DNA from: Candidatus Pelagibacter communis | Lineage (GTDB): Bacteria > Pseudomonadota > Alphaproteobacteria > Pelagibacterales > Pelagibacteraceae | NCBI RefSeq assembly: GCF_001179985.1 | Contig: NZ_CVSI01000058.1 | Coordinates: forward strand, 186,001-250,000 | DNA: 64,000 nucleotides | Direction of reading: 5' to 3' | Shown here: positions 42,078 to 63,262 of the stretch, in pieces | How positions within the stretch are numbered: position 1 is the stretch's first letter | Layout of the letters: the number at the start of each line of letters is the position of its first letter | Notes under the pieces: model-generated | The model's database searches: none | Told to the model about the DNA's origin: nothing | What the model saw: only the letters and a program-made list of their open reading frames with translations | Position numbers and translations under genes: made by a program

Positions 42078-42848
42078 CTAATTTATCTCTTTTCGAATTT
42101 GTTCTAACTTAATTTTTTTTTGTAAACTTCTACTAATGTCGTAAAGTAAATTAAACTTTAATCTTTTATTTGTTTTAATTTTAATTGTCCTAGCATTTCT
42201 TACTTCGATGTTATCAGCAACTGCACTAATAGGTCTTTTTTTGATATTTAAGTTTGTAATTGTAATTTCAGAATTATCACTTACTATTTTCCCTTTCCAG
42301 CGTCTGGGTCTAAACGGACTGATAGGAGAAATAGAAAGTTTTTTTGAGTTTAAATTAAGAATGGGCCCATGAACAGAAAGATTATAAGCTGTACTTCCGG
42401 CGGGAGTTGAAACTAGAACACCATCAGAAATTAACTTTTTGATAATATCTTTTTTTCCATTTTTAATTGATAAATTAGCAGCTTGTCTACTTTGTCTTAA
42501 AATTGAGACTTCATTTATTGCTATTGAAGTTTTTGAGAGACCAGTTTTATTTGTGACTCTCATTTCAAGAGGAGAGATTGAAATCAATTTTGCTTTTTTT
42601 AAGTTATTTAAAATATTCTTTTGTGAAAATTTATTCATTAAAAAGCCATAGTTTCCAGAGTTAATACCGTAAAAAAATTTTGAACTACCTTTATTTTTTT
42701 TTAAAGTTTTCAGCATAAAGCCATCACCACCTATTACTATATTCAAGTTGTCATGTTTCAGATTATTATTTTTTAAAATTTTGAGTAGTTTTAATTTAAT
42801 TCTTAAAGATGACTTATTTTTGTCAGAGGTAATAACAATTTTTTTCAT
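42078..42848 (-). CDS. nadK: NAD kinase
   Basis: Phosphorylates NAD to NADP. The GGDGFMLKTLKK motif (DGxx family) and GINSGNYGFLMN are conserved, followed by LVSTPAGSTAYNLSVHGPIL and the beta-rich C-terminal domain with ISPFRPRRWKG. 256 residues, complete. It is a core gene caught between the glycan group and tRNA-Leu, four bases from the tRNA 3' end. Confidence 0.93.
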   Translation of the reverse strand: MKKIVITSDKNKSSLRIKLKLLKILKNNNLKHDNLNIVIGGDGFMLKTLKKNKGSSKFFYGINSGNYGFLMNKFSQKNILNNLKKAKLISISPLEMRVTNKTGLSKTSIAINEVSILRQSRQAANLSIKNGKKDIIKKLISDGVLVSTPAGSTAYNLSVHGPILNLNSKKLSISPISPFRPRRWKGKIVSDNSEITITNLNIKKRPISAVADNIEVRNARTIKIKTNKRLKFNLLYDISRSLQKKIKLEQIRKEIN

Positions 42849-42852
42849 TTAA

Positions 42853-42938
42853 TGGTGCCCTCGGCCAGACTCGAACTGGCACTCCATAAATGGCAAGGAT
42901 TTTAAGTCCTTTGTGTCTACCAATTTCACCACGAGGGC
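42853..42938 (-). tRNA. tRNA-Leu (anticodon TAA), attachment site of island 2
   Basis: Class II tRNA: acceptor GCCCTCG pairs with CGAGGGC, the anticodon stem AAGGA/TCCTT encloses CTTAAAA (TAA), a long variable arm follows, and CCA is encoded. From the anticodon loop to the 5' end it is identical to 48066-48106. Confidence 0.97.
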
Positions 42939-42970
42939 ATTAATGAATTTCATGAGTGTTTATGCCAATA

Positions 42971-42999
42971 TTTATAATTGAACAAGAGGAATAAGTAAA
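42971..42999 (-). promoter_or_regulatory. Promoter of tRNA-Leu
   Basis: Minus strand TTTACT (42994-42999), 17-base spacer, TATAAA (42971-42976), about 33 bases before the tRNA 5' end. The whole arrangement is conserved in the duplicate at 48137-48165. Confidence 0.5.
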
Positions 43000-43021
43000 T
43001 TTTTTTTATTTTATCTTTTTA

Positions 43022-43040
43022 GGTACTGGTCTGGTACTGG
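43022..43040. repeat. Period-11 direct repeat of island 2, left copy
   Basis: GGTACTGGTCTGGTACTGG: two GGTACTGG half-sites starting 11 bp apart. It lies 34 bases past the restriction-modification stop codon and differs by one base from 47922-47940. Confidence 0.85.
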
Positions 43041-43074
43041 TTATCCTAGAAGGTCCTATAACTTATATAAAGGT

Positions 43075-46000
43075 TTATATTAAATTAATTTTTGGAATTT
43101 TTTTTATCAATTTTTGTGTTTCCACTGAAATATGAATTATTTTTAACAATAAATTAAAAGAATAAGACGGATCTTTCATAGCTTCTTTGTTAAATTCATT
43201 AATATCATTTGTAAAACCAGTTTTATCATCCTTTTTAACTGAATGTCGTTCCATTATCCATTCGATAGCAGATTTTCCACTTAATCTATAATCATAAGCC
43301 TCAAGTGGTATATCTTTAATAGTAATATAATTATTAAATTTAATTTGAGTTTTATCAGGACTAGATCTTGTACCAACAAAATTTATTTGAGATATATTGT
43401 AAAACTCTTCTTTGGGATATTTTTTTTTGTTATTATGAAAATCCACATTAAATTTTGCACTATATAATCTTTGATTATCAAAATCTAAATGTAGGTTTGA
43501 TAGTTTTTTTCCTATATCATTGATTTGCATAAAATCTTTATACTTTACTATTGGAATTCTAGGCATTCCCTTTATTAAATTATTATGAAATTTTTTCCTG
43601 TAATGATCTGAATGTAAAATTCCATATACATAATAAAAAATTTGGTCCTCAGTTACTTTTTTATTTAATTTTTTTTTAAAAAGAGAGACTATTTCTGGAT
43701 TTAAGTTATTTACTACAGTAGATTTGTCTTGGAATAAACTACTCTGACTATCATCCTCATTATTATTTTTATCATTGTAATAAATATACCTTGGAAATGT
43801 ATGTGAAGTATTAAGTAGATGATATTCAAAAGGTTTATTTACCATTAAACAACTAAATTCACTAAAACCAGTGGTAATAACTATCGACATATTTTTATGT
43901 TTTTTTGGAAAGATTTGTTGGTGTTTTCTAGGTCTTGATACAATAAAATTATCTAAATAACACCATGTAGAAACAAATGGTCGATACAAAACTTTTTGAA
44001 TTTTTTTTTCATCAAATCTATATTTTTGTTTTCTCCTAAATTGAGCTTCTAATGTACTATCCCACTTTATATCTTTATCCTTAAAATTAATCTTATTATA
44101 ATTTATTTTTTGATCAATTAAGCTATTAAATTTTTTTGTCATATTTCTTGTTATATTTATTAATTTTGATTTAGAAAAATTAATAGCATACGAGTCTCTT
44201 GCTGATGCAAAACCACTTGATGTAATTGAAAAAAGATAATTTTTAAAATCTACATCATTTTTGTTAATTGAAATATATTTATCAAATTCTTTGTTGGTTT
44301 GGTTAATCCAATCATTATTTTTATCAGGTGTAATTGATACAAAAAGATTCTTATCTTCGATATTCTTTATAGATTTTAAATTAAATATTTTATTTAATTT
44401 TTGTTCTTTTGTTAAATAATCTCCAATATCATAATATTTAATATCAGCTTTTTTATTTTGTTTATTTTTATTTTTAACAAGAATTGTAATTGCGACTGGT
44501 GTCCTCGAACCCTCACCAAAAACATTACCTTTTTCCTTACGTCTTATTTCACCTTGAGTTCTCGCATTTCCTCTCAGATTAAATATATAAATACTGCTAA
44601 ATTCTTCTTCAAAACATTTTCTTAATCCATCTGTTGCATTAGCATCTATCCAACTTGCATTGGTAACAAATCCTATAATACCCTCATCTTTTATTCTATC
44701 TGATGCCCATCTAAATGCCCTTATATAACTATCATATATCTTATTTTTATTTGAAGAATTTGAGTTCTTCACATAGGTTTCATAGATTTTTGAATCTAAA
44801 TTTCTATAAGAAACGTTTGCAGCATCATCACTAAAAGATTTTTGACCAGCTGAATATGGTGGATTACCAATTATCACTCTAATATCTCTTTTTTTTTGAT
44901 TAGTTCTTCTGTTAGAATTATCAGGTAGTAAATCAGCTATTAAATCTCTATCTTGTTCATACAACTGAAAAGTATCAGTCAACACTGACCCACTAAAAGG
45001 TCGATACGAGTTCTCTTTAATTATTTCTTGGTAAACAGACTCGATATTAATACCAGCGATATAGTATGCTAATAGAACAATTTCATTACAATGTATTTCG
45101 TTTATGAATTTATGTTTTAAATTTTTCTTATCAATCAATTTCGATTGAATTAATCTTGTTATAAAGGTTCCAGTTCCTGCAAACGGATCCAAAATATGTA
45201 TATTTTTTTCAGATAAAGATGAATTAAAATCTCGAATAAGTACATCATTAATAGATTTTAATATAAAATCTACTACTTCAACTGGAGTATAAACTATTCC
45301 AAGTTTATTAGTTGTTATTGGAAATGCATTTTTGAAAAATCTTTCATACAACTCATTAATTAATGTTGTTCTTCCTTTGGATGTTACTATATCTGAAGCT
45401 CTTCTTTTTACGCTGTCATAAAATTTTTCAAGTGATTTTGTCTCAACTTTTATATTATAATCATAAATATTTGTTAAAACATTGTGAATTGCTTTTGAAA
45501 CTGCATTATCTTTTACGAATTCATTTCCTTGAAATAATGTATCAAAAACGGGTTTTGTTATTATATGTTGAGCCAGCATTTCAATTGCATCATTTTCAGA
45601 TATTTCAGGATTCAAATCGTCTCTAATTTCTCTTAGAAACAGTTCAAATGTTTTCCTTTCTTTAGACTTTTTATTTACTAAAATTGAATTTAATCTTGAA
45701 ATATGTGTCTGAGCTATTTTGGCGATATCATTTGCCCAATTTTCCCAATAATCTCTTGTTCCGCATTTATCAACTATTTTTGCCTTAATTGCTTTGGATA
45801 AATCATTTATTTCAAAAGATAATTGATTTGTTTCTAAATCATCATCTTTTTTATTTTCAATATTTATAAGATTATCATCAGTATCTGGTATTACTTTTGC
45901 TGAGGTTTTAATGTCATCAATTTCAGCAGTTAAGGACTCAAGTTCATCATTATAGTTAATTATATCTATTTTATCTGAAACATCTTCGCCTAACTTTATT

Positions 46001-47901
46001 TTGTTAATTGTACTATCTAGTCTTTCATCATGTGCTCTAAGAGCATTTAAAATTTGCCATACAACACTGTATTTCTCGTTATTATCAAGAGCTCTTTCAG
46101 GTGTTACACCTGGTGCGATTGTGACAGGTATCACCACATAACCAATATCTTTTCCCTCTGCTTTTCTCATTACCCTTCCAACAGACTGAACAACATCTAC
46201 TTGACTTTTTTTGGGGTGAAGAAACATTATTGCATCAAGAGATGGTACATCTACTCCTTCAGATAAACACCTAACATTTGATAAAATCCTACATTGATCA
46301 TCTGGAATTTCTTCTTTAAGCCAATTTAAATGTTCTGTTCTCCTATCAGCATTAAAGGTTCCATCAATATGTTTTACATCAATATTAAGTTCTATTTTTT
46401 CATTTTTGTTCTTGTAGGTATAATCTTTAATTACATTTTTAAATTCACTTTCAAAAATTTTGGAAATTTCTATATTTTGGGAAAAGGCTAGAGCTCTTTT
46501 TATTGGGCTATGATTATTATTATCAAAACCAACTTTAGCTAAGGCTTTATAGCAACCAATAATTTTTGTAGCATCGTCAAGTCTAAGCTCTGAGCCGTCT
46601 TCAAATGATTTTTGAAGATCTCTACTTACCTTTGTTTCATCTATTGCAAGAATAACTACTTTATAGTCTGATAAAAGATTATTTTCTACAGCCCAATTAA
46701 ATCCTCTAAAAAAAAGTGTTTCACCATAAATTTTTTTATCATCCATTGAAGCTAACGCAATATCCTCTCCTTTTGCTTTAGATTTAGCTTTCTCTCCATA
46801 AATTTTTGGTGTAGCAGTCATGTAAAGTCTTTTTTTTCCTTTAATAACTGCATTGTCATGAATTTTTACAAAATTAGATTCATCTTCATCAAATAAAGTC
46901 GCACCTGTAGTTCTGTGAGCTTCATCACAAATAATTAAATCAAAGTCTGGGATATCAAATTGTTTTTGAGCTTTTTCTATAACATCAATTGATTGGTAGG
47001 TCGAAAAAATAACTATCATTTTATTTTTTTCACAATTTTTAATTTGTTTTGATAAATCCTCTGAATTTGTTGTCGCTGGAAATGCAAGATCATTCAATGA
47101 TATTTCAATTTTATCATCTGATGGTTTTCTTTTTCCCACTTTCACATCTGAACAAGCTGAAAAAGCATAAAAATCATCAATAGAATCGTTTTTCCATTCT
47201 CTTACAGTTTGAGACATGAGTGCTAAAGATGGAACAATATATAAAATCAATTTATTTTTTGATTTTAATTTTTCAGCGATATTTAAGGCTGTGAAAGTTT
47301 TTCCAGTACCACAAGCCATAATAAGTTTACCACGATCTTTTTTATTTAAACCAGATAACACAGCATCCACTGCTTTAATTTGATGGTCCCGTAATTCTTT
47401 TTTTTTGTTTAATACAACTTTTTCATCTTTTAAATATGATAACCAATCAATCCGACTCTCTTGTAATTCATTCAATTGAATTCTTTGATATTTTTTGTCT
47501 AAATTATTAAATACTTTTTTTGCATTTATTCCTATATCTTGAGAAGAAGTATCTATAAGAATTAGTCTTTCAAAATCATCAGTTGAAGAAGCTGAAATAA
47601 AAGAGTCTATATCTGATTTAGAAATAGTATGTTCAGATTGATAACACTTACATTGAATTGCACAAAATTTATCACTTCCATTTATTTTTGCTACTAAATC
47701 TATTCCGATGTCTGATTTAGAATAATTTTTGTTTGCTTTTGACCAATCTTTATAATGCCAAATTTTTGAAAATTGTTGTTTTTGTAATGGATCATTTTCA
47801 AAAAAAATTTTACACATTTTTTCAAAAACATCCCCTAGATCTTTATCATTTTTAGCTTTTTTTCGGATAATTTTAATAGCTTCTGAAAAATTTGAGTCCA
47901 T
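43075..47901 (-). CDS. Type ISP-like single-polypeptide restriction-modification enzyme (nuclease-helicase-methyltransferase)
   Basis: A 1608-residue protein with the whole restriction system in one chain. An Mrr-like PD-(D/E)xK nuclease domain lies at residues ~20-110 (GIDLVA with D68, AIQCKCY with K85). The superfamily II helicase has Walker A ACGTGKT (197-203), DEAH (326-329) and motif VI QSVGRVMRK (572-580). The gamma-class N6-adenine methyltransferase has DPFAGTGT (905-912) and NPPY (1013-1016), and the C-terminal ~450 residues should be the target-recognition part. The layout matches LlaGI/LlaBIII-type enzymes. It is alone in the tRNA-Leu island, with no separate antirestriction or regulator gene. 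Confidence 0.93.
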   Translation of the reverse strand: MDSNFSEAIKIIRKKAKNDKDLGDVFEKMCKIFFENDPLQKQQFSKIWHYKDWSKANKNYSKSDIGIDLVAKINGSDKFCAIQCKCYQSEHTISKSDIDSFISASSTDDFERLILIDTSSQDIGINAKKVFNNLDKKYQRIQLNELQESRIDWLSYLKDEKVVLNKKKELRDHQIKAVDAVLSGLNKKDRGKLIMACGTGKTFTALNIAEKLKSKNKLILYIVPSLALMSQTVREWKNDSIDDFYAFSACSDVKVGKRKPSDDKIEISLNDLAFPATTNSEDLSKQIKNCEKNKMIVIFSTYQSIDVIEKAQKQFDIPDFDLIICDEAHRTTGATLFDEDESNFVKIHDNAVIKGKKRLYMTATPKIYGEKAKSKAKGEDIALASMDDKKIYGETLFFRGFNWAVENNLLSDYKVVILAIDETKVSRDLQKSFEDGSELRLDDATKIIGCYKALAKVGFDNNNHSPIKRALAFSQNIEISKIFESEFKNVIKDYTYKNKNEKIELNIDVKHIDGTFNADRRTEHLNWLKEEIPDDQCRILSNVRCLSEGVDVPSLDAIMFLHPKKSQVDVVQSVGRVMRKAEGKDIGYVVIPVTIAPGVTPERALDNNEKYSVVWQILNALRAHDERLDSTINKIKLGEDVSDKIDIINYNDELESLTAEIDDIKTSAKVIPDTDDNLINIENKKDDDLETNQLSFEINDLSKAIKAKIVDKCGTRDYWENWANDIAKIAQTHISRLNSILVNKKSKERKTFELFLREIRDDLNPEISENDAIEMLAQHIITKPVFDTLFQGNEFVKDNAVSKAIHNVLTNIYDYNIKVETKSLEKFYDSVKRRASDIVTSKGRTTLINELYERFFKNAFPITTNKLGIVYTPVEVVDFILKSINDVLIRDFNSSLSEKNIHILDPFAGTGTFITRLIQSKLIDKKNLKHKFINEIHCNEIVLLAYYIAGINIESVYQEIIKENSYRPFSGSVLTDTFQLYEQDRDLIADLLPDNSNRRTNQKKRDIRVIIGNPPYSAGQKSFSDDAANVSYRNLDSKIYETYVKNSNSSNKNKIYDSYIRAFRWASDRIKDEGIIGFVTNASWIDANATDGLRKCFEEEFSSIYIFNLRGNARTQGEIRRKEKGNVFGEGSRTPVAITILVKNKNKQNKKADIKYYDIGDYLTKEQKLNKIFNLKSIKNIEDKNLFVSITPDKNNDWINQTNKEFDKYISINKNDVDFKNYLFSITSSGFASARDSYAINFSKSKLINITRNMTKKFNSLIDQKINYNKINFKDKDIKWDSTLEAQFRRKQKYRFDEKKIQKVLYRPFVSTWCYLDNFIVSRPRKHQQIFPKKHKNMSIVITTGFSEFSCLMVNKPFEYHLLNTSHTFPRYIYYNDKNNNEDDSQSSLFQDKSTVVNNLNPEIVSLFKKKLNKKVTEDQIFYYVYGILHSDHYRKKFHNNLIKGMPRIPIVKYKDFMQINDIGKKLSNLHLDFDNQRLYSAKFNVDFHNNKKKYPKEEFYNISQINFVGTRSSPDKTQIKFNNYITIKDIPLEAYDYRLSGKSAIEWIMERHSVKKDDKTGFTNDINEFNKEAMKDPSYSFNLLLKIIHISVETQKLIKKIPKINLI

Positions 47902-47909
47902 GAAACTAT

Positions 47910-47915
47910 ATTATA
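47910..47915 (-). promoter_or_regulatory. TATAAT -10 box just before the restriction-modification start
   Basis: A perfect minus-strand TATAAT ends nine bases before the ATG at 47901, implying a leaderless or nearly leaderless mRNA. The -35 position (47933-47938) falls inside the period-11 repeat, which has no good -35, so that repeat may be an operator or activator site. Confidence 0.45.
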
Positions 47916-47921
47916 TCTTTA

Positions 47922-47940
47922 GGTACTGGTTTGGTACTGG
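47922..47940. repeat. Period-11 direct repeat of island 2, right copy
   Basis: GGTACTGGTTTGGTACTGG, one base different from 43022-43040 and in the same orientation. It starts 21 bases upstream of the restriction-modification ATG, overlapping the promoter. Confidence 0.85.
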
Positions 47941-48136
47941 TTTTAAAGATCAATATACTGAGATTCTTTATGAAAATGTTTACAAATTATAAAGATGCTA
48001 ATGTTTAAAAGAATTTAAGACTACGTTAGACTACCACGGACTGACTCACTTGTGAATCCCTCGGCTTTTAAGTCCTTTGTGTCTACCAATTTCACCACGA
48101 GGGCATCTGTTATTTTCATTAGTGTTTATGCCAATA

Positions 48137-48165
48137 TTTATAATTGAACAAGGCTAATAAGTAAA
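48137..48165 (-). promoter_or_regulatory. Orphan copy of the tRNA-Leu promoter facing the restriction-modification gene
   Basis: TTTACT (48160-48165), 17 bases, TATAAA (48137-48142), the same as at tRNA-Leu. Transcription from it would read the orphan tRNA half and then into the restriction-modification gene, whose start is 236 bases away with no terminator obvious between. Confidence 0.45.
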
Positions 48166-48187
48166 TTTTTTTTATTTTATCTCCCTA

Positions 48188-48206
48188 GGTACAAGTCTAG
48201 TACAAG
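48188..48206. repeat. Variant period-11 direct repeat beyond island 2
   Basis: GGTACAAGTCTAGTACAAG. It is positionally equivalent to 43022-43040 in the duplicated flank, but the CTGG of both half-sites has become CAAG, so the half-sites changed together. Confidence 0.8.
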
Positions 48207-48230
48207 TTCTCCTATAAAATCCTATATCTA

Positions 48231-48256
48231 AAAAGTTCTATTAGAGTGAAGGCTTT
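48231..48256 (-). pseudogene. Remnant of a pilin gene 5' end
   Basis: These ~26 bases match the codons for the GFTLIELL segment of the neighbouring pilin genes with only a few differences, in the same orientation, but no pilin follows. It lies 15 bases beyond the last intact pilin stop and next to the island 2 boundary. It looks like the scar of a deletion or recombination through the conserved pilin start. Confidence 0.6.
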
Positions 48257-48270
48257 GTTATTCATTTTTA

Positions 48271-48786
48271 TTAATTTGTAATTGCTATATAGCCACTCTC
48301 TATATATCCTACATCTTTACCTTTGCATGGTTCTAAAAAGCACGTTCCAACTTCCATTGTTGTTGGACCATGATCTCTCAAATTAACAACTCCTCCAGAC
48401 CCTGTACTTTGATAGTTATATGGTTGACATGTACCGTTACGTGATGAACAAACTGCAGGCAAAGATGGGTTGACTGGATTTTTTAGTTTATTTTTTAAAG
48501 CTTTTTCAGCTGCATTTATTATTACCGGAACAGGCGTTGATGTATTTAAGTTACTACAAATTAAGTTTCCATCCATTGCTGAGGTGTCACCTAGATCACA
48601 TTTTTTTGTTTCTGACATAATGTATTTAATAATATTTGCTTGTTGAGCTTTAACAGCATTCTTTTTTGCACTTGCAGTATATCCATTATAAGCAACCACC
48701 CCTACTGCAGCAAGAATACCGATGATTGCTACTACGACTAAAAGTTCTATTAGAGTAAAGCCTTTTAATTTACGTATATTATGCAT
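48271..48786 (-). CDS. Type IV pilin-like protein, array member 11
   Basis: 171 residues from ATG 48786, chosen because it gives a short leader (MHNIRKLKG) before FTLIEL; upstream codons lie inside member 10. The prepilin cut is after Gly, with Glu5 in FTLIEL and the hydrophobic helix VVVAIIGILAAVGVVAYNGY. The variable part has a Cys pair in KKCDLG and LICSNL, a KNPVNPS segment and a late CFLEPC pair, a pattern shared with other members. It overlaps member 10 by 22 bases. The last intact gene of the array. Confidence 0.9.
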   Translation of the reverse strand: MHNIRKLKGFTLIELLVVVAIIGILAAVGVVAYNGYTASAKKNAVKAQQANIIKYIMSETKKCDLGDTSAMDGNLICSNLNTSTPVPVIINAAEKALKNKLKNPVNPSLPAVCSSRNGTCQPYNYQSTGSGGVVNLRDHGPTTMEVGTCFLEPCKGKDVGYIESGYIAITN

Positions 48787-49244
48787 TGGTCTACATTTTT
48801 GGTGTTTGGTGTGGTTTGAGCAGGACATGTGCTGTCCCAACAAGTTCTAACATGTATTTCTTTTTTACTGTATTTACCTATGCCTATATCACCTGGTACA
48901 TCATTATTATGAAACAAAGTAACTGCTGAGCTTTTATTATCGTAAGCGTTTTTTGCAAAATTAGAAAGGTCTGTTGCTACTGCTCTTGCTACTCTGTCAG
49001 AGTTATTTCCAACAGACAAGTCACTACAATTTAAATTTTTATCAAATATAGACTTCTCACCTAAATCACATCTTCTAATTTCAGCTGCAATGTATTTACA
49101 GACTGCACTATGATTAGACTTTGAAGTATTTTTTTTGGCACTACTCGTATATCCATTATAGGCAACTACACCTACCGCAGCAAGAATACCAATGATAGCT
49201 ACCACGACTAAAAGTTCTATAAGTGTGAAGCCTTTTTGTTTCAT
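48765..49244 (-). CDS. Type IV pilin-like protein, array member 10
   Basis: 159 residues: leader MKQKG, cut before FTLIELL, then the shared helix and YNGYTSSAKK. The globular part has RRCDLG and NCSDL cysteines and a C-terminal CWDSTC pair. It is closest to members 4 and 11 in the CDLG/CNLG region but otherwise different. Its start abuts the member 9 stop, with no spacing. Confidence 0.92.
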   Translation of the reverse strand: MKQKGFTLIELLVVVAIIGILAAVGVVAYNGYTSSAKKNTSKSNHSAVCKYIAAEIRRCDLGEKSIFDKNLNCSDLSVGNNSDRVARAVATDLSNFAKNAYDNKSSAVTLFHNNDVPGDIGIGKYSKKEIHVRTCWDSTCPAQTTPNTKNVDQCIIYVN

Positions 49245-49787
49245 TTAAAAATTTGGATCAATAATTGCAAAATCTTGCATTTGTTTATTATCCCACCACC
49301 ACATTACTTTAAATTTGCCAGAGTTACCGGAACAATATGGATTTCTTGGACAGACAACCATAGTAACTTCTCCATCATCCTCACCATCTCCAGCACCTAC
49401 TCCTTTAGAACCTTTCATTTTGACAGCACAATTTCCGGAGGGATGATTATATGATCTTCCGCTATAACTTTTTGCGTCTGTATCTAGTGGATTTGCTAAA
49501 CCATATTTATGGGTTAAAGTTATAGCAGCACAACTCCACTGCTTATTTTTAAATATATCATTACAAGGAACTCCTGGATCACCAAATATTCTAGTCGATG
49601 TATCAATTCCACACTTTGCAAATTCACCCTGCATATAACTAACAGTTGTTCTAAAATTTTGTTTTACAACCGCTTTTTTTGCTGAAGATGTATATCCATT
49701 GTAAGCAACTACTCCCACTGCAGCAAGAATACCGATGATTGCTACTACGACTAAGAGTTCTATTAGGGTGAAGCCTTTTTGATTCAT
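49245..49787 (-). CDS. Type IV pilin-like protein, array member 9
   Basis: 180 residues: leader MNQKG, FTLIEL, shared helix. The tail is Gly/Asp-rich in the middle (GSKGVGAGDGEDDGEV), with Cys in AKCGID, VPCNDI, WSCAAI, NCAVK and VVCPRNPYC, more cysteines than most members. The KYGLANPLDTD segment is its version of the NP[FY] motif. Two bases separate it from member 8. Confidence 0.92.
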   Translation of the reverse strand: MNQKGFTLIELLVVVAIIGILAAVGVVAYNGYTSSAKKAVVKQNFRTTVSYMQGEFAKCGIDTSTRIFGDPGVPCNDIFKNKQWSCAAITLTHKYGLANPLDTDAKSYSGRSYNHPSGNCAVKMKGSKGVGAGDGEDDGEVTMVVCPRNPYCSGNSGKFKVMWWWDNKQMQDFAIIDPNF

Positions 49788-49788
49788 A

Positions 49789-50292
49789 TTAAAATCCTGT
49801 TGGCACTTGTAACTGATCTAAAGTTTTTTTAGTTCCGCTTTCATCATAAGAGGCATCTATTAAAAAACAGGGGTCAGTTTTACATTGGTTCCATCCTACT
49901 AAAACAATTTCACCAGCATTTCTAGTCGGGCCACTATTTAATAGACCACTTGGGTTGCTAGGAGTTGTATTATAAGGATTTTTAATTTTAGTTTGGAAAA
50001 CGTCTATGAAATATTGTGCCCAAACATTGCTGTTTAAATTTCCAGCACCTCCAGTTGAACACGAAGTTATATGTTTGCTTACAGTTGGGCCTTCGGTAAG
50101 ATTTGTTCCCATCTGACATTTAGCAATTTCAGCCATTGCATATTTTTGAATCATTTTTTGATTACTCTCCATCGTTTTCTTTTTAGCGCTAGCAGTATAC
50201 CCATTATAAGCAACTACTCCCACTGCAGCTAGAATACCTATGATTGCTACTACGACTAAAAGTTCTATTAGGGTGAAGCCTTTTTGTTTCAT
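49789..50292 (-). CDS. Type IV pilin-like protein, array member 8
   Basis: 167 residues: leader MKQKG, FTLIEL, shared helix and YNGYTASAKK. The tail has AKCQMG and ITSCSTG, the KNPYNTTPSNP segment and the CKTDPC pair near the end. Its ATG overlaps the member 7 stop by four bases, so the two are translationally coupled. Confidence 0.92.
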   Translation of the reverse strand: MKQKGFTLIELLVVVAIIGILAAVGVVAYNGYTASAKKKTMESNQKMIQKYAMAEIAKCQMGTNLTEGPTVSKHITSCSTGGAGNLNSNVWAQYFIDVFQTKIKNPYNTTPSNPSGLLNSGPTRNAGEIVLVGWNQCKTDPCFLIDASYDESGTKKTLDQLQVPTGF

Positions 50293-50804
50293 TGAACTTT
50301 GAACTTTGTGATCATACTTTCACTTGGTGAAATATTTGTACCAACTATTATTTCATCATTCTGTTGTCTTGTAATACAAGTTCCACCACCACTTCCATTG
50401 TTATTATAAACAGTGTTTCCACTAACAGAGCACACGCTGGTAGCATACCATTGTTGCTCGTAAACATTCTTATATCCTATTGCTTTAAAGTGGTAATCAA
50501 ATGCCTCAACAACACTATAACTATTATTGCCTTTGGTAATATTGTTAACTTTTGAACATAAATCTGATTGATTGACTACATTTCCTGAAGATATTTTTTT
50601 TAAAATCAATGGTTCTGAAACAGTACATTTCATGATTTCAGTTTGGATAAATTTTGCTATTGTCTTATGTTGATTTTTAGCTGCATTTTTTTTTGCACTT
50701 GATGTATACCCATTATAAGCAACCACTCCTACTGCAGCTAGGATACCTATGATAGCTACAACGACTAAGAGTTCTATTAATGTGAAGCCTTTTTGTTTTA
50801 TCAT
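50289..50804 (-). CDS. Type IV pilin-like protein, array member 7
   Basis: 171 residues from ATG 50804 (leader MIKQKG); a TTG three codons earlier is a weaker alternative. FTLIEL and the shared helix follow. The tail lacks the KNP segment, has MKCTVS, DLCSKV, a Gly/Asn-rich loop (NNNGSGGGTC) and ends in SMITKFKVQ. It is among the most divergent tails. Confidence 0.9.
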   Translation of the reverse strand: MIKQKGFTLIELLVVVAIIGILAAVGVVAYNGYTSSAKKNAAKNQHKTIAKFIQTEIMKCTVSEPLILKKISSGNVVNQSDLCSKVNNITKGNNSYSVVEAFDYHFKAIGYKNVYEQQWYATSVCSVSGNTVYNNNGSGGGTCITRQQNDEIIVGTNISPSESMITKFKVQ

Positions 50805-50825
50805 TTTTATCAAATAATAATTAAG

Positions 50826-51314
50826 TTAACACCAGCTTTCTAAATTAAAAAAAACATTTTTATATACCAGGCTTTGATTATAGTCTTTAGAAACAAAGGT
50901 TCTAATACTAATTTGGCATGGTCTATTTCCAGGACTAAGATCTACTGTAATTGCCTCTTCAAGATATCCTCCAGTTATTTCCATGCAGCCTCTATGATCT
51001 CTGTAAAGGTTTTCACAAATATGATTGTTAACATGTTCTCGTAATTTATTTGCAAAATCACTTTTGTTTGTCGAATTACATTTATATGTAACTTTTGCAC
51101 CGGAAGCATTTTTGAATTCAATCTCATCTTTTAATTCACAACTTGCTTTTTGTGCATATAAATATTTGATTACAGTGTCGTGACTTTGCTTTAAAACAGT
51201 ATCTTTTGCTTTAGCTGTATACCCATTATAAGCAACCACTCCTACTGCAGCTAGAATACCGATGATAGCTACAACAACTAAGAGTTCTATTAGGGTGAAG
51301 CCTTTTTGTTTCAT
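50826..51314 (-). CDS. Type IV pilin-like protein, array member 6
   Basis: 162 residues: leader MKQKG, FTLIEL, shared helix, then YNGYTAKAKD instead of the usual SAKK. The tail has ASCELKDE, YKCNST, HICENLY, GCMEI, RPCQIS and a C-terminal Trp-Cys. Six bases downstream of member 5. No KNP segment. Confidence 0.92.
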   Translation of the reverse strand: MKQKGFTLIELLVVVAIIGILAAVGVVAYNGYTAKAKDTVLKQSHDTVIKYLYAQKASCELKDEIEFKNASGAKVTYKCNSTNKSDFANKLREHVNNHICENLYRDHRGCMEITGGYLEEAITVDLSPGNRPCQISIRTFVSKDYNQSLVYKNVFFNLESWC

Positions 51315-51320
51315 TTTAAT

Positions 51321-51857
51321 TTATTCGGGTACAGTTATAATTTCAGTAATTATATCATTAGATCCAGATCCATATCTAGTTGAGATTTTATAACCTTTAC
51401 CAGTACCTCCATCAAAATTCATATAGGTGTAGCCAACTTTATTTGGGGGTGGTATTGAATAACTAGATACAAAAGCATTACCATTATCTTCAAATGGATT
51501 TTTGATCATTGAATAATACTCAAAAGGACATTTGGCGGTGTCAAAGTATGCTCCTGGATTACTTTTAGGACTTCCTATTGATTTCAAACTATTACAATTT
51601 TTATTGGTTGAGCAATTCGTGCTTGGATTTGACTGAAAAGTTTTATTAGTGATCGAGTCAAATTCAACATCAAGGTTATAACATTTGTTTATTTCATTAA
51701 TAATATAATTTTTAACTGTATTATGATTCTTTTTTACTACGCTAATCTTAGCACTAGCTGTATACCCATTATAAGCAACTACTCCCACTGCAGCTAGAAT
51801 ACCGATGATTGCTACTACGACTAGAAGTTCTATTAGGGTGAAGCCTTTTTGTTTCAT
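51321..51857 (-). CDS. Type IV pilin-like protein, array member 5
   Basis: 178 residues from ATG 51857, which gives the standard MKQKG leader; the open frame upstream belongs to the end of member 4. FTLIEL and the shared helix follow. The tail has NKCYNLD, NCSTNKNC, KCPFEYY and the KNPFEDNG segment, and ends in a Gly/Ser-rich region with STRYGSGSND. Seven bases after member 4. Confidence 0.92.
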   Translation of the reverse strand: MKQKGFTLIELLVVVAIIGILAAVGVVAYNGYTASAKISVVKKNHNTVKNYIINEINKCYNLDVEFDSITNKTFQSNPSTNCSTNKNCNSLKSIGSPKSNPGAYFDTAKCPFEYYSMIKNPFEDNGNAFVSSYSIPPPNKVGYTYMNFDGGTGKGYKISTRYGSGSNDIITEIITVPE

Positions 51858-51864
51858 TTCTAAA

Positions 51865-52338
51865 TCAATCCATGTAAACATAACTGATAGTTCTGTTATT
51901 AGCATTACTACATGGAGTCTCGTGACATGTAGCAATTAATACATTGTTCCATGCATTCTGACCCATTAATGTTCTTCCAAGATTAGCATCGTTATTATAA
52001 TCGTACCAACTAATATTAATAGCGCTCTCATCAGTATTGAAGGGATTCTTAAAAGCTGCGGATATACCTGCTCCAGGTTTGTGAATAGCCTGAATAATTT
52101 GACTTGAATTTGTTATTGGACAAGATAATTGACCTGACATTGCAGTTCTTTCTCCTAAATTACATTTTTGAATTTCAGCGGACATAAATTTTACTATTGA
52201 TGAATGATTTGATTTGGCCGAAGATTTTTTAGCACTACTCGTATACCCATTATAAGCAACTACACCTACTGCAGCTAAGATACCAATAATGGCTACAACA
52301 ACTAAGAGTTCTATTAGGGTGAAGCCTTTTTGTTTCAT
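51865..52338 (-). CDS. Type IV pilin-like protein, array member 4
   Basis: 157 residues: MKQKG leader, FTLIEL, shared helix, YNGYTSSAKK. The tail includes QKCNLGERTAMSG, LSCPIT, KNPFNTDE and the CHETPC pair followed by SNANNRTISYVYMD, which resembles the ends of members 2 and 3. The ATG overlaps the member 3 stop by one base. Confidence 0.92.
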   Translation of the reverse strand: MKQKGFTLIELLVVVAIIGILAAVGVVAYNGYTSSAKKSSAKSNHSSIVKFMSAEIQKCNLGERTAMSGQLSCPITNSSQIIQAIHKPGAGISAAFKNPFNTDESAINISWYDYNNDANLGRTLMGQNAWNNVLIATCHETPCSNANNRTISYVYMD

Positions 52339-52853
52339 TAATAACCAATCCTTTTTTGAAATCTGTTAGCTGAGTCCGAACACGGTGTTTTAAAACAACC
52401 ATTAAATACTAGATCTCCTCTATTATTGTCCCAACACGCAGTTACTTGACCAACATATTGATCTTTAGTTGTATTTATAAAACACTGAGTTGTAAAAAAA
52501 TTTCCTTGCGGTTTATAAATATTTAAGATCGGTTGACCAAATCCATAATTATTATTTGCTCCAAAATAGTTTGATATTATTCCTGCTACTCTTGCAACAT
52601 CACTACTTGAGGAACTTAATAGTACATGACATTGTGTTTTATTCCACATAGCACTTTCATTACCACCTTTTACCTCACATAAGGCTTTTTCATTTAACCA
52701 AGTTTTATAAATCACATCCATATTTGCTTTTGATGTATTGGCTTTGGCGCTTGTTGTATACCCATTATAAGCAACAACTCCTACTGCAGCTAGAATACCT
52801 ATGATTGCTACAACGACTAAGAGTTCAATTAGCGTAAAGCCCTTTTGTTTCAT
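52338..52853 (-). CDS. Type IV pilin-like protein, array member 3
   Basis: 171 residues: MKQKG leader, FTLIEL, shared helix, YNGYTTSAKA. The tail has ALCEVKG, TQCHVL, QCFINTT, TACWDNN and the CFKTPC pair before SDSANRFQK. One base after member 2. The late CxxxPC-Ser-Asp-Ser-Ala-Asn pattern is shared with member 2 (CCHTTPCKDSAN). Confidence 0.92.
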   Translation of the reverse strand: MKQKGFTLIELLVVVAIIGILAAVGVVAYNGYTTSAKANTSKANMDVIYKTWLNEKALCEVKGGNESAMWNKTQCHVLLSSSSSDVARVAGIISNYFGANNNYGFGQPILNIYKPQGNFFTTQCFINTTKDQYVGQVTACWDNNRGDLVFNGCFKTPCSDSANRFQKRIGY

Positions 52854-52854
52854 T

Positions 52855-53367
52855 TTAAGGAATTATATTTAATCTTGTATGATTTGCACTATCTTTACAA
52901 GGAGTAGTATGACAACAATATAAATCTATTCCTGTATTGTTATCACTTATAAACACATAACCCAGATGATTGTCGTTAATTGTTCCCCAATTATTAAATA
53001 CAACCAAGGATTTTTCCTGCTTAAAAGGATTTTTCATTGTGCAAAAAGAACATCTGGAATAACCAACGTAATTAATAAATGCATTTTTCGCAATTCTTCC
53101 AGGATTTTGTACTCTTAGAGGACAGAGAAAGTTTAAACTATTGGTTTGATCAAATATATAATCTGTCATCCCTGTGTTACATTTCATAGTTTCAAGACGT
53201 ATAAATTTTTCAATTGATTTACATGTAGATTTTATGTTTGAGGATTTGGCACTATTTGTATATCCATTATATGCAACAACCCCTACTGCAGCAAGAATAC
53301 CGATGATTGCTACTACGACTAAGAGTTCTATTAGGGTGAAGCCTTTTTGTTTAATTACACCAACCAT
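52855..53367 (-). CDS. Type IV pilin-like protein, array member 2
   Basis: 170 residues: leader MVGVIKQKG, slightly longer because the start is displaced into member 1 (17-base overlap). FTLIEL and the shared helix follow. The tail has MKCNTG, FLCPL, RCSFC, KNPFKQEK and CCHTTPCKDSAN. The KNPF and CxxxPC motifs mark the common globular core. Confidence 0.92.
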   Translation of the reverse strand: MVGVIKQKGFTLIELLVVVAIIGILAAVGVVAYNGYTNSAKSSNIKSTCKSIEKFIRLETMKCNTGMTDYIFDQTNSLNFLCPLRVQNPGRIAKNAFINYVGYSRCSFCTMKNPFKQEKSLVVFNNWGTINDNHLGYVFISDNNTGIDLYCCHTTPCKDSANHTRLNIIP

Positions 53368-53869
53368 CTTTAGCTATTGTTACATTATAGTATTCTTTAT
53401 GAGTTTTTACCCAAAGAGCTATTTTTTTTTTTGAAGCGCCTGAATAACATTCTGTTTCATCAAATCTCATCCTCCCATCAGTATCATTTCTACCGTTTCT
53501 AGCAGTGTGTACAACAACAACATCCTTATCATAAGGATTTGTGTAACCTTGATCTAAAAAATATTGCATAAAAACAGCATTTAAAGAATTAATTCCCGAG
53601 GCATTATTTGTTACATTGCAGTTAATAGTTCTTTTATCACTTAACTTTAACGTAGCTGTGCCCTCAACATCACAAAGTTTAAGTGATTGATTTATAAATT
53701 TGACTGCTTGTTCATGTTGTTGAAGCGTAGCATTTCTTTTAGCACTAGCCGTATAACCATTATAAGCAACTACTCCTACCGCAGCTAAGATACCGATAAT
53801 AGCTACAACAACTAAAAGTTCTATTAATGTAAAAGCCTTGAGGTTATCTCTTTCAATTGCTTGCGACAT
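53351..53869 (-). CDS. Type IV pilin-like protein, array member 1 (first in the run)
   Basis: 172 residues: leader MSQAIERDNLKA, cut before FTLIEL, so the -1 residue is Ala rather than the Gly of all other members. The shared helix and YNGYTASAKR follow. The tail has KLCDVEG, INCNVT, TNPYDKD, ECYSG and a C-terminal DGWCN. As the promoter-proximal member with a distinct leader, it may be the founding or least exchanged copy (inference). Confidence 0.92.
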   Translation of the reverse strand: MSQAIERDNLKAFTLIELLVVVAIIGILAAVGVVAYNGYTASAKRNATLQQHEQAVKFINQSLKLCDVEGTATLKLSDKRTINCNVTNNASGINSLNAVFMQYFLDQGYTNPYDKDVVVVHTARNGRNDTDGRMRFDETECYSGASKKKIALWVKTHKEYYNVTIAKDGWCN

Positions 53870-53892
53870 TAGCAGTTTGATATAAGTTTAAT

Positions 53893-54501
53893 TTAAAACT
53901 TTATTCTAAATGCTATAGAATTGTATTTACTATCAAATTCGTCAGCATTATAAGCGTCACCATCTGATGTGGTTCCGCTACCACCCTCAACTTCTCCAAA
54001 ATTAGAATGTTTAAATACTAACTCATAATTGTCAGAACCTAATCCTAATATTAATTGATATGCAAAATTAAAAGTGTTCTGGTCACCATTGAATGTGTTA
54101 CTTCCAGACCTATAACTAGTATCTACCATTGAATAACCAAAACCAGCACCTCCCCCTATGATACCATAAAACTCACTTTCACCTGGTGTTGCCATAGCAT
54201 TAAACATTGAAGCAATGGTTGACACATCGACAGTAACATCTGATGTTAATTTTTGTGATACTTCGCTATAGTAATTTGTCTCAATTTCAGTACTTATACC
54301 ATTAGATCTTTGTCCAAAAGCAATTCCTAAAACAAATCCATTCTCTTCAGGGTCTTTAAAATAAGTTGTGCCACCAGAGTCGTGCGGATCTTCAGCAATA
54401 TGCTTTGTGTAGCCTAAGGACATCATAGAGTAATTTTCTGCTACAGATACATTTATAGCTGAAAAAAATATTGCAAAAATCGTAATTAACAGTCTACGCA
54501 T
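53893..54501 (-). CDS. Outer-membrane beta-barrel protein
   Basis: 202 residues with a signal peptide (MRRLLITIFAIFFSAINVSVA, cut before ENY). The mature part alternates hydrophobic and polar residues in strands such as NGFVLGIAFGQRS, GISTEIETNYYSE, FYGIIGGGAGFGYSMVD, FAYQLILGLGSDNYELVFKHSNF, and ends with an aromatic Phe (IAFRIKF), typical of small OmpA/OmpW-like barrels. Gly-rich loops carry acidic residues. It lies 23 bases upstream of the first pilin gene and could share its transcript. Function beyond a barrel is unknown. Confidence 0.8.
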   Translation of the reverse strand: MRRLLITIFAIFFSAINVSVAENYSMMSLGYTKHIAEDPHDSGGTTYFKDPEENGFVLGIAFGQRSNGISTEIETNYYSEVSQKLTSDVTVDVSTIASMFNAMATPGESEFYGIIGGGAGFGYSMVDTSYRSGSNTFNGDQNTFNFAYQLILGLGSDNYELVFKHSNFGEVEGGSGTTSDGDAYNADEFDSKYNSIAFRIKF

Positions 54502-54842: not shown

Positions 54843-55208
54843 TTATTTTACAGGTACTACAAAGTTAGGTGTATATGTTCTATGTTTATCAGTTATAGAG
54901 TCTGTAATTCCTAAGTCTATAAGAACACTTCCAGCAAGTTTTGCATCTTCAATTTCGCTTGGTATACTTCCAAAAGAGGTCTTGCCACTTTCGGTTTTGC
55001 AATCGTATCTTAAAGCGTCATCTGAACGTCTTACCATTTGTGTTCCAGGTACTTCAACTTCATACTGGGCTCTTTTATTAGAAAGTTTACAAGTTCCAGA
55101 GCTACCATCGCTAAATGAGAGTGTAACCGGAACGTCAGGGTCGTTAACTATTGATGCACAGGATGTTAAAAACACTAAAAGTAAAATTGAAGCTAGATGT
55201 TTTGCCAT
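54843..55208 (-). CDS. Small lipoprotein
   Basis: 121 residues. A lipobox LTSC at residues 13-16 after a short hydrophobic segment predicts lipidation at Cys16. The mature start CASIVNDPDVPVTL resembles the SCA-(S/T)-IV family of small outer-membrane lipoproteins, with a Cys pair (GTCKLSN, RYDCKTE) and a Ser/Gly turn. The predicted sorting is to the outer membrane (no Asp at +2). It probably works with the neighbouring barrel, but that is positional inference. Confidence 0.75.
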   Translation of the reverse strand: MAKHLASILLLVFLTSCASIVNDPDVPVTLSFSDGSSGTCKLSNKRAQYEVEVPGTQMVRRSDDALRYDCKTESGKTSFGSIPSEIEDAKLAGSVLIDLGITDSITDKHRTYTPNFVVPVK

Positions 55209-60574: not shown

Positions 60575-63262
60575 TTATCCTGTATTTTTTATAGCTGCCG
60601 ATATTCCGGCAATACTAGTCATCAAAGCATCGTTTAAATAGTCTTTATTTTCTCTTTTATTATTTTTTTTTGATAGCTTCATCATTACAGTTGCCTGCAG
60701 AATATTTAACACTTCAGAATAAAGGTTTCTTATAATTGCTGGACTTCTAAAAATTTTTCTTTGTTGTAAAATTTCTCTCGGTGTAATCTTTTTATTAAGT
60801 GTTTTAAGTGCATCAAATTGAAATCTTAGTTTTTTTCCAACTCTTTTTAAATTTTCATCTGCTAAATTTTCTTCATAAATTTTGGAAATTTCAGGATCTA
60901 CCTTAGAGATTACCATATCTAATAAGTCCATTGTAGAATTAAAGAAAGGCCAATTTTTTTCCATATCTATTAAAGTTTTTCTAAATTTTTTTATTGAGGA
61001 ATATCTTAAAGCTTCAGCTGTACCTAACCATGCTGGCAACATTAATCTAATTTGTGTCCATGCAAATACCCAAGGTATTGCCCTTAAACTTTTTATACTA
61101 TCTACTTGTTTTCTTTTAGATGGACGGGATCCAATTGAAAGTTTGCCCAATGCTAAATGAGGTGTAACAGTTTTAAAATATCTAATGAATTCCGAGTTTG
61201 ATGTTAAATTTTTTCTATATGAGCTTTTAGATATATCAGACATATTTTCTATTAAATTTCTCCAATTATTTTTTGGTTCTGGTGGTGGAATTAATGTTGC
61301 AAGCATTACCGAACTTATGTAGCTACATAAATTATATTTAGCTAATGGCTCATAACCATACTTTTGTTGAATTACTTCACCTTGATCAGTAATTCTAATT
61401 TTACCATTAACAGATCCAGGAGGTTGAGATCTTAGTGTTGCTTGAATTGGTCCTCCCCCTCTTCCTGCAGAACCTCCTCTTCCATGAAAGAAAGATACAT
61501 TAATTTTAAATTTTTTTGATAGAGCTAAAATTTCTTCTTGTAATTTATATTGATGCCAGCTTGCACATAATTTACCTGCATCCTTACTTGAGTCTGAGTA
61601 GCCAATCATAATTTCTTGATTATGTTTAATTAAATTTCGATACCATCTTAATTTATATAAAGAGGACATAATCTTTCCTCCATTTATTAAATCGTCTAAG
61701 GTTTCAAATAAAGGTACAACTCTCAATTTATCTTTTATATTTGCTTCTTTTTGTAAAAGAATAACTGAAAGAATATCTGATGCTGAGGATGTCATTGATA
61801 TAATATAGGCTCCTAAACATTCTTTTGGTTGACGTGCTAATTCTTTAAAAGTTAACCAAACTTCTAAGTTTTCTTTATCTTTAAATTGAAAATTCTTAAA
61901 AAAGTTTTTACCTTTTATTTTTTTTGATAAAAACTTTATTTTCTCTTCCTCTGTCCAAGAATTATAATTCTTTTTAAATTTTCTTTTTACAATTTCAGTA
62001 ATAAGTTTTGTATGTCTTGAAGATTCTTGTCTAATGTCTAATCTTGCTAAGTTAATTCCAAAACATTTTGCCCTTCGCATTAAATCTAATAATTCACCAC
62101 TTGCTATATTTTCATTTTGTGTTTCTTCTAAAGACTCTCTAACTACTCTTAATGGTTTTAAAATACTTTCCCTAGAGGAAATTAAATCTTTTTGGTTCAG
62201 TGGTTTTTTATTAACTAAATGTTGCTCAATCATTCTATGGGTTTTTCTCATTTTATCTCTAAGGGGTCTTAAATAAACTCTATAGGGTTCATATGAAAAG
62301 CCAGTATATTTTAAAATCTTTTTTGAACATTTTTGCATTGAAAAAGATCTAATTAATTTTGTTAAGGATTTTTCATAAAGTTTTGCAGCTTCCCATCTAG
62401 ATAAGAGTAAAACCTCTTTTGTAACTTCTGATGTAACAAATGGATTTCCATCCCTATCACCTCCCATCCATGAACCAAATTCAATTGGATTAAAATTCTT
62501 AGGTAAGTTTCTGTTCATATTTTTCACAAATATTTCATTTAATCTTCTGTAAACTTTTGGAATTGTTTCCCATAAACTATCTTCAATAATTGCCAAACCC
62601 CATCTTGCCTCATCAAAAGGCGAAGGCTTAAATCTCTTAAGTTCATCAGTGTTCCAAATAATAGTTATTTCATCGAACATTTTTTTATCTAAAACTTTTA
62701 ATTTAGATGGATAATTTTTAAGTAAATTTCTTTGTTCTAATATTTCAGTTAAAGTATGGTATTTCTGAATTAAAGTTCTTCTTTTAACTTCAGTTGGGTG
62801 TGCAGTTAAAACTATTCCAATATTAAGCTTTTTAGCAAGGTCATAAATTTTATTATTAGAAATATTTTTATTTTTGAAAAAATTTTCAAATATTTCCTCA
62901 ATAAAAATATTCTTATTTTTTTTATTTTTATCGGAGTTTTCATATTGATCTAATGTTCTTGAGGCATCAACAGACTCTGCTAAATTATATAAATTCATAA
63001 AGTGACTGTAAGCTCTACTTAATTTGAGTAGATCTTTAGGATTTTGTTTTTTTATTTCTTTAGATAAACTTTTAAAAGGGTTTTTGAGATTTTTATTAGC
63101 AATATTTGCTTTAGAAATAAGTCTTGTTTTTTCAACTAATTTAAAAAATTTAACTCCTTCCTGTTCCTTTATAACTTTTCCTAATATATTACCAAGGTAT
63201 CTAACATCATCTCTTAAGCTTTTTGTTGGAATTCTTTCATAATAGAGATCTCTTTTTATCAT
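60575..63262 (-). CDS. ppc: Phosphoenolpyruvate carboxylase
   Basis: Carboxylates PEP to oxaloacetate to refill the TCA cycle. Catalytic motifs are all present: VLTAHPTEVKRRT, GGDRDGNPFVT, GYSDSSKDAGK and FHGRGGSAGRGGGP, and the C terminus ends AAIKNTG as expected (usually QNTG). 895 residues, close to the bacterial length. It marks the return to core genome and its upstream side is the COG3484-like peptidase, 26 bases away. Confidence 0.97.
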   Translation of the reverse strand: MIKRDLYYERIPTKSLRDDVRYLGNILGKVIKEQEGVKFFKLVEKTRLISKANIANKNLKNPFKSLSKEIKKQNPKDLLKLSRAYSHFMNLYNLAESVDASRTLDQYENSDKNKKNKNIFIEEIFENFFKNKNISNNKIYDLAKKLNIGIVLTAHPTEVKRRTLIQKYHTLTEILEQRNLLKNYPSKLKVLDKKMFDEITIIWNTDELKRFKPSPFDEARWGLAIIEDSLWETIPKVYRRLNEIFVKNMNRNLPKNFNPIEFGSWMGGDRDGNPFVTSEVTKEVLLLSRWEAAKLYEKSLTKLIRSFSMQKCSKKILKYTGFSYEPYRVYLRPLRDKMRKTHRMIEQHLVNKKPLNQKDLISSRESILKPLRVVRESLEETQNENIASGELLDLMRRAKCFGINLARLDIRQESSRHTKLITEIVKRKFKKNYNSWTEEEKIKFLSKKIKGKNFFKNFQFKDKENLEVWLTFKELARQPKECLGAYIISMTSSASDILSVILLQKEANIKDKLRVVPLFETLDDLINGGKIMSSLYKLRWYRNLIKHNQEIMIGYSDSSKDAGKLCASWHQYKLQEEILALSKKFKINVSFFHGRGGSAGRGGGPIQATLRSQPPGSVNGKIRITDQGEVIQQKYGYEPLAKYNLCSYISSVMLATLIPPPEPKNNWRNLIENMSDISKSSYRKNLTSNSEFIRYFKTVTPHLALGKLSIGSRPSKRKQVDSIKSLRAIPWVFAWTQIRLMLPAWLGTAEALRYSSIKKFRKTLIDMEKNWPFFNSTMDLLDMVISKVDPEISKIYEENLADENLKRVGKKLRFQFDALKTLNKKITPREILQQRKIFRSPAIIRNLYSEVLNILQATVMMKLSKKNNKRENKDYLNDALMTSIAGISAAIKNTG

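Follow-up and report, generated by a model that had tools for sequence, protein, structure and literature searches.

The window analyzed here is a 64,000-nucleotide (nt) stretch of Candidatus Pelagibacter communis DNA (contig NZ_CVSI01000058.1, positions 186,001 to 250,000; G000:C58:186001-250000 in our numbering), taken from an assembly of 945 kb in 74 contigs that is 75.5% complete. It contains an array of 11 complete, leftward prepilin open reading frames (ORFs; 48271-53869, minus strand), each with FTLIELLVVVAIIGILAAVGVVAYNGYT, which follow one another head to tail at gaps of -22 to +21 nt. An earlier note, made from the sequence alone, had described eleven leftward tandem pilin-type genes at this position, and the measured spacing bears it out. 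The PF07963 (N_methyl) cut-off is exceeded by 11/11 in a genome scan and by 8/8 of the array genes (g1-g6, g9, and g11) included in a protein-level Pfam scan. A class III signal is present in every member, with glycine (10 genes) or alanine (g1) before F1, glutamate at +5, a leader, and a hydrophobic helix.

From the higher-coordinate end, and all on the minus strand, the genes are g1 (53351..53869, 172 amino acids, aa), g2 (52855..53367, start codon uncertain), g3 (52338..52853), g4 (51865..52338, for which AlphaFold2 models were made), g5 (51321..51857, with the ATG start set at 51857), g6 (50826..51314), g7 (50289..50804, with the ATG start set at 50804), g8 (49789..50292), g9 (49245..49787), g10 (48765..49244), and g11 (48271..48786). 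Beyond g11 lies a truncated twelfth pilin start (48212..48265, minus strand), comprising the leader and 21 nt of head in a short frame, MNNKAFTLIELFRYRIL and a stop. The remnant that had been pointed out near 48231 is therefore real, with its ATG at 48265 and its frame running to 48212.

An N-terminal stretch of 28 residues, hereafter the head, is identical in all 11 array pilins, whereas the tails are divergent. Mean pairwise DNA identity in 15-nt blocks stands at 0.86-0.92 over head nt 1-75 and falls to 0.74 in the nt 76-90 block, to 0.47 in the nt 106-120 block, and to about 0.3 past nt 166; the 15 nt preceding the head are 0.80 identical across the array, and identity farther upstream is about 0.3. 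The sharp drop after a shared start had been predicted correctly, but the accompanying figure of more than 90% identity over the first ~110 bases was too high, as the 84-nt head averages 0.878. This is nonetheless above the 0.802 (standard deviation 0.009) expected from an invariant protein and local codon usage, and above the highest of 2000 head simulations (0.837). Head DNA has a G+C content of 0.38, compared to 0.33 for the array and 0.30 for the window. After the head, one asparagine and two cysteine columns are invariant in the array, and the cysteine count is even in 11/11 proteins. The KNP[FY] and CxxxPC motifs attributed earlier to the tails do occur, but in only 4/11 and 5/11 pilins, respectively.

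The genome has 18 N_methyl matches, 11 in the array and seven elsewhere. As had been supposed, assembly machinery is encoded outside the window: contig C14 has ORFs read as pilQ, pilB, and pilC, then two pilins, while contig C24 has a pilD-like ORF with a lipase, two pilins, and then PilY1-, PilX-, PilW-, PilV-, FimT-, and PilT-like ORFs (machinery names here are readings of translated ORFs and not the product of a family scan). Three of the four pilins on C14 and C24 carry the array head. The pilin beside pilC is one of them, although its best array-tail match is only 30.5% (g11); the pilin beside pilD is 89.6% identical to the g8 tail (aa, over 134 residues), and the g8 head is nearest to that of g5 (81/84 nt). 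An initial idea, that every genome has a conserved pilin beside pilC, was abandoned, as the copy here is only 42-43% like those of AH-287-D11, G092, and G106.

Comparable genes are widespread in the genus. N_methyl matches at E ≤ 0.001 were found in 76 of 151 genus genomes, and in 14 of the 22 most complete; 12 of the 151 have at least 12 prepilin matches, with a maximum of 21 (the genome under study is counted in both totals), and two single-contig genomes have four N_methyl matches each. The earlier view that such an array would be unusual in a streamlined genome has to be corrected in light of this recurrence. For comparison, stretches were fetched from 30 host genomes chosen for many or strong prepilin matches among those listed, and array sizes from these stretches are no random sample. 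Host motif matches numbered 217, seven of them short (one cut by a stretch edge) and 210 long, of which 203 have the head. These 203, together with seven on phage contigs, make up the full pilin set (n = 210); host statistics leave out the seven phage pilins, and the mosaicism and selection sets leave out pilins under ~110 residues. Single-cell genomes and G-numbered genomes may partly overlap, and the best matches of the array among named records were Pelagibacteraceae single-cell genomes (L061-L069), which gives good support to an assignment to SAR11. Gaps between neighbors were within 40 nt in 123 of 151 cases, an operon-like spacing. Among 18 chosen stretches whose neighborhoods and riding genes were compared, same-head arrays occur at three types of place: the ppc-SpoU interval around NAD kinase, the region behind pilC, and the vicinity of pilD or PilY1. 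We found no description of pilin arrays of this type in SAR11 in the open-licence literature.

At a 60% identity threshold, tails of the full set group into 116 families, of which 75 have a single member. For 7/11 window tails there is a relative of at least 60% identity in another fetched genome, with the order not kept. Tail content and order thus differ between genomes, in agreement with the variable pilin repertoire that had been proposed and with the cross-genome variation that had been anticipated as a check on it. The clearest case is g11, whose tail is 100% identical at the aa level to one in G106 (374/390 nt, with 16 synonymous changes). The two heads match at 74/84 nt, no closer than any two heads, and NAD kinase identity between the two genomes is ~73%. 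Past the stop codon the DNA match continues into the leader of the following gene, and it stops at the point where the window stub does. Likewise, g1 and its counterpart in G069, the closest relative, share 384/384 nt of tail and 79/84 nt of head, and the g5 tail recurs in G110 at 90% aa identity.

Since the head is rich in fourfold codons, third-position comparison is open to amino-acid bias, and we therefore repeated it with codons for the same amino acids only (A, V, G, T, L, I, and S). For 40 cross-genome pairs with tails at least 90% identical (aa), codon identity is 0.61 in the head vs. 0.76 in the tail, with the head lower in 32/40 (Wilcoxon, 1e-6); taken singly, 15/40 pairs are significant at 0.05 and 3/40 at 0.001. 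A profile over 26 pairs, none of them pairing G000 with G069, gives 0.60, 0.60, 0.52, and 0.64 over codons 1-28, 0.71 at codons 29-36, and 0.78-0.85 beyond, placing the identity step between codons 28 and 37. When pairs were chosen on the distal tail alone (n = 27), identity was 0.62 in the head, 0.87 in the proximal tail, and 0.82 in the distal tail, with the head lower in 24/27. Pairs within one tail family are not independent, but with one pair per family the head is still lower in 15/17 (p = 0.0007). In the third-position comparison, cross-genome head identity is nearly independent of tail match, at 0.575 when tails match vs. 0.566 when they do not. Because synonymous identity in pairs with near-identical tails is low in the head and high in the tail, heads and tails have separate histories, and the head behaves as a recombination boundary, much as had been suggested for the near-identical 5' block. 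The 18 nt past the stop codon, which belong to the next leader, are at least 0.8 alike in 16/26 pairs, compared to 2/26 for positions -45 to -16 upstream of the head. What is exchanged seems to be one tail together with the leader that follows it.

Judging from these sequence comparisons, we consider it likely that the array is a functional multi-pilin repertoire in which homologous recombination through the head trades tails from one SAR11 genome to another. The N-terminal head of a pilin packs the pilus core. Here the invariant head would have two roles, the packing of the core and, as DNA, that of a common homology arm. Recombination through two successive heads would insert, delete, or replace one tail together with the leader of the next gene, and tails would move in this way between SAR11 genomes and at least three pilin loci, while the head would stay local, that of the recipient. 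The array prepilins would probably be co-transcribed and assembled by the machinery from other contigs, perhaps into mixed pili. Exchange would presumably depend on RecA, which is encoded in the genome, and on some route of DNA entry, and recognition by phages, grazers, or surfaces may favor tail diversity.

A simpler account is plain tandem duplication with divergence in each lineage. Protein constraint and local gene conversion would then preserve the head, and genomes would exchange little. Besides the tandem layout itself, this account draws on the fact that heads are slightly more alike within genomes (0.603) than across them (0.566), a difference reached in 0/1000 label shuffles. It does not readily explain identical or near-identical tails on different heads and among different neighbors, as for g11 and G106 despite their NAD kinases at only ~73%, and it would still require local head conversion after whole-gene transfer. 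On balance we regard it as improbable, although it is the best of the alternatives. Whole-gene transfer followed by local head conversion would leave a trace similar to that of tail exchange and is not fully separable from it; there too, the head would be the recombining part.

Tail divergence also bears on whether the array might be a silent reservoir, that is, a set of donor cassettes converting one expressed pilin, as pilS does for pilE in Neisseria. Tandem pilin copies with common sequence and the recurrence of the g8 tail beside pilD speak for such a system. However, the ratio of nonsynonymous to synonymous divergence (dN/dS) in tails has a median of 0.073 and a maximum of 0.19 (80 pairs), indicating strong purifying selection, which argues against silent donors. 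Partial cassettes of the Neisseria type, without a 5' end, were not encountered: 11/11 members are complete ORFs with leader and head, unlike the partial pilS copies described in the accessible text of PMC4023411. Nor is the resemblance between g8 and the pilD-linked pilin recent, as dS is 0.71 between g8 and a G069 pilin that is itself 99% like the pilD-linked one, and the pilin beside pilC holds no copy of an array tail. No G3 quadruplex was found in the window, which was the extent of the scan (the pilC and pilD loci lie outside it). A silent reservoir seems to us unlikely, slightly more so than simple duplication.

The lower end of the array runs into a conserved element (48189..48230, minus strand) with a direct repeat of the form ACTTGTAC-TAG-ACTTGTAC. 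The earlier note had treated the remnant there as a trace of recombination among the near-identical 5' blocks; it is more accurately one of seven similar array ends, among 32 sites, at which a truncated pilin head is joined to the element. An exact 8-mer direct repeat with a 3-4 nt spacer is present in 24/29 elements, with 20 different first 8-mers, and the copies agree at 7.6/8 positions within elements vs. 5.1 between genomes, so that the repeats covary (this count used 29 of the 32 sites, with G047, G121, and G050, which have no repeat, left out as chance pattern matches). The element occurs in 29/151 genomes, whereas a reversed control pattern gave one match. A tRNA-Leu starts 126-128 nt beyond it at 17/32 sites, and it precedes another conserved ORF, of the MNKENASKLWKIIQEAG type, at about nine. 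One may guess at recombinase arm sites or an operator.

These array ends and their repeats are what one would look for if a recombinase acting at the element added and removed pilin genes in the manner of an integron. Yet the genome, at 75.5% completeness, has a single tyrosine recombinase match (PF00589), ~50 kb before the window start, with none near the array; the breakpoints map to heads inside genes throughout the arrays and not just at the end; and the element is also found at sites without pilins. No integrase adjoins the array and, although no attC model search was made, gaps of only -22 to +21 nt leave little room for attC sites. We therefore give site-specific cassettes little credence. 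Least plausible of all are specialized minor pilins or type II secretion pseudopilins in place of interchangeable subunits: it is through the head that solved pilins are matched best by profile, and the available part of Wilhelm et al. (2007; PMC2217521) labels one gene of hypervariable region 1 (HVR1) as a pseudo-pilin, pulG, but a FimT-, PilV-, PilW-, and PilX-like set is encoded separately and the pilin beside pilC shares the array head.

Structure prediction speaks only weakly for a pilin fold of the tails. For g4, AlphaFold2 predicts a long helix, a loop, and strands (mean predicted local distance difference test score 84.4 for the whole protein and 89.1 for the tail), and 20 solved chains were matched by a profile built from 28 pilins, in nearly every case through the head. 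In a second structural comparison of 283 ranked chains, four of eight rows were pilins, the best one included. A fold search against viral models gave no match at E ≤ 0.001.

Several observations weigh against exchange of functional tails through the head. Two Foldseek searches of the tail against the PDB returned no match at E ≤ 0.001, with no pilin among the 50 rows shown of the two lists, which still leaves room for a pilin fold, and the best chain in the second comparison, from a heteropolymeric type 4 pilus, reached a Z of 5.3 at a root-mean-square deviation of 9.5 over 106 residues. The head is not lower than the tail in 8 of the 40 pairs, and 25 of the 40 are not significant singly. The within-genome head excess is small, and genome-specific codon use could add to it. 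The G069 array is broken by contig ends, leaving no pair of same-array alleles from near-identical strains. As for the means of DNA uptake, none of 61 genus genomes, of which 10 have a completeness of 90% or more, gave a ComEC match, as against 10 of 14 controls, and DprA was not found in the genome under study, the only one searched for it and 75.5% complete. Natural transformation as the DNA route was rejected on these results, and we put forward none in its place.

Arrangements with some of these properties are known elsewhere. The accessible text on HTCC1062 lists autotransporters in HVR1, then two pilin-type genes, SAR11_0053 and SAR11_0054, and remarks that tandem duplicates have been lost and gained there (Wilhelm et al., 2007; PMC2217521). 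The array likewise has pilin-type genes beside autotransporters in a variable region, and from gene order its locus appears to correspond to HVR1; it differs from what is listed there in having eleven genes and a stub, with probable tail exchange through the head. In dark-starved HTCC1062, pili were seen and pilA was up-regulated, according to the part of PMC3090418 available. The six Haloferax volcanii pilins PilA1-PilA6 also combine a near-identical hydrophobic head with differing tails, each forming pili alone, but they are archaeal and number six, and inter-species tail exchange is not described in the accessible text of PMC4371748. Closer in habitat, marine planktonic Synechococcus WH7803 has PilA1 and a six-pilin cluster, with ~50 conserved N-terminal residues and tails that vary even between close strains; the available portion of PMC7994388 gives one main pilA1 per strain and describes neither a same-head array nor mosaicism.

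Neisseria pilE/pilS shares with the array tandem pilin sequences, a constant N-terminus, and variants made by recombination, but there, as far as the accessible text goes, the pilS copies are partial, silent, and serve as donors to a single expression locus within their own cell (PMC4023411), in contrast to the complete genes under selection, common to several species, found here. Compared to known pilin variation, what would be new is that complete genes and not silent donors are involved, that exchange is between species and not within a cell, and that a coding head serves as the arm. A different parallel is the replacement flexible genomic island, reportedly described by López-Pérez et al. 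in 2014, in which recombination at the flanks is said to swap whole clusters for surface structures between aquatic lineages. Both would rely on homologous recombination at shared flanks to swap surface genes; here, however, part of a coding sequence would be swapped with the arm inside the gene, instead of whole clusters.

The array is flanked on its higher-coordinate side by small ORFs, two large ORFs read as autotransporters, and then ppc, and on its lower-coordinate side by a type ISP restriction enzyme, tRNA-Leu, and NAD kinase. A 202-aa ORF adjoining g1 (53893..54501, minus strand) is a possible passenger gene. It has no Pfam match at E ≤ 1, lies within the pilin array of G110 (L043:13073-13681), and, like a 121-aa ORF (54843-55208), is missing in G069 between otherwise matching neighbors. 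The NAD kinase (42078-42848) is 74% identical to that of G069 vs. 98% for ppc (60575-63262), and for this reason the edge of the variable region may itself have been replaced. The restriction ORF (43075-47901) lies between the intact tRNA-Leu (42853-42938) and a 39-nt partial copy (48104-48066) that consists of the tRNA-Leu 5' half and upstream letters, a pattern as after integration at a tRNA; G064 and G123 have a comparable partial tRNA copy with other cargo. In a search of RNA families over 42500-54500, the sole match at E ≤ 1 was a tRNA at 42856-42938.

Related pilins are also found on eight IMG/VR contigs, six of which have a full gene with phage-type neighbors among the ORFs read. A single pilin gene with a SAR11-like head is present on each of several contigs (L141:3442-3972, L142:1332-1889, L143:7983-8513, L144:1071-1649, L145:5251-5781, and L146:6184-6765) that come from uncultured relatives of the pelagiphages Kolga and Aegir; a further pilin is on a second kind of phage contig (L148:5003-5503). 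The L141 RNA polymerase is 66.9% identical to those of Pelagibacter phages Aegir and Kolga, and phage SSB, terminase, and DNA polymerase families are represented among the ORFs of L141, L142, and L145. The Kolga annotation has no pilin closer than 7 kb to the polymerase gene, and a search of 50,697 phage records with the viral-contig pilin found nothing at E ≤ 1e-5. Between the phage pilin tail and the nearest host tails identity is 29-33%, and it is speculation that a phage pilin alters host pili during infection. Among the matches listed, we found no description of phage-carried pilins in the open-licence literature.

A second family with a constant head and variable tail consists of secreted proteins beginning MKKLLGIVVLGLLL. 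Its 36-nt head is 0.82 alike and nt 76-165 are 0.33 alike across 11 ORFs, two of which represent a single gene; since the family was found by its head motif, part of the head likeness is by construction. The genes are at L041:17037, L045:6223, L045:9814, L049:11880, L050:9731, L222:6063, L232:6304 (minus strand), L247:592, L256:2688 (minus), and L271:1484 (minus). No tail is common to any two of the 10 genes at E ≤ 1e-5. A stub of 15 residues, of the same kind, lies ahead of the repeat element at L248:1467.

More tentatively, SAR11 may hold a common pool of exposed tails in which conserved DNA of secretion or assembly heads acts as an adaptor between species. Pilin heads would be one class of adaptor and the MKKLLGI-type signal peptide maybe a second, with phages carrying pilins and the repeat element marking array ends. 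We see this wider picture as possible and rather less likely than not to hold in full.

SAR11 is the most abundant group of heterotrophs in the surface ocean, and among the sources of its surface variation the sugar region HVR2 is the best known. If the exchange of tails through the head is real, pilin arrays would be a second, protein-based source of surface variation in SAR11, following the rule of a constant head and an exchanged tail, which can be checked in any long-read marine dataset. It would also link pili, recombination, and phage pressure in cells where ComEC was not found.

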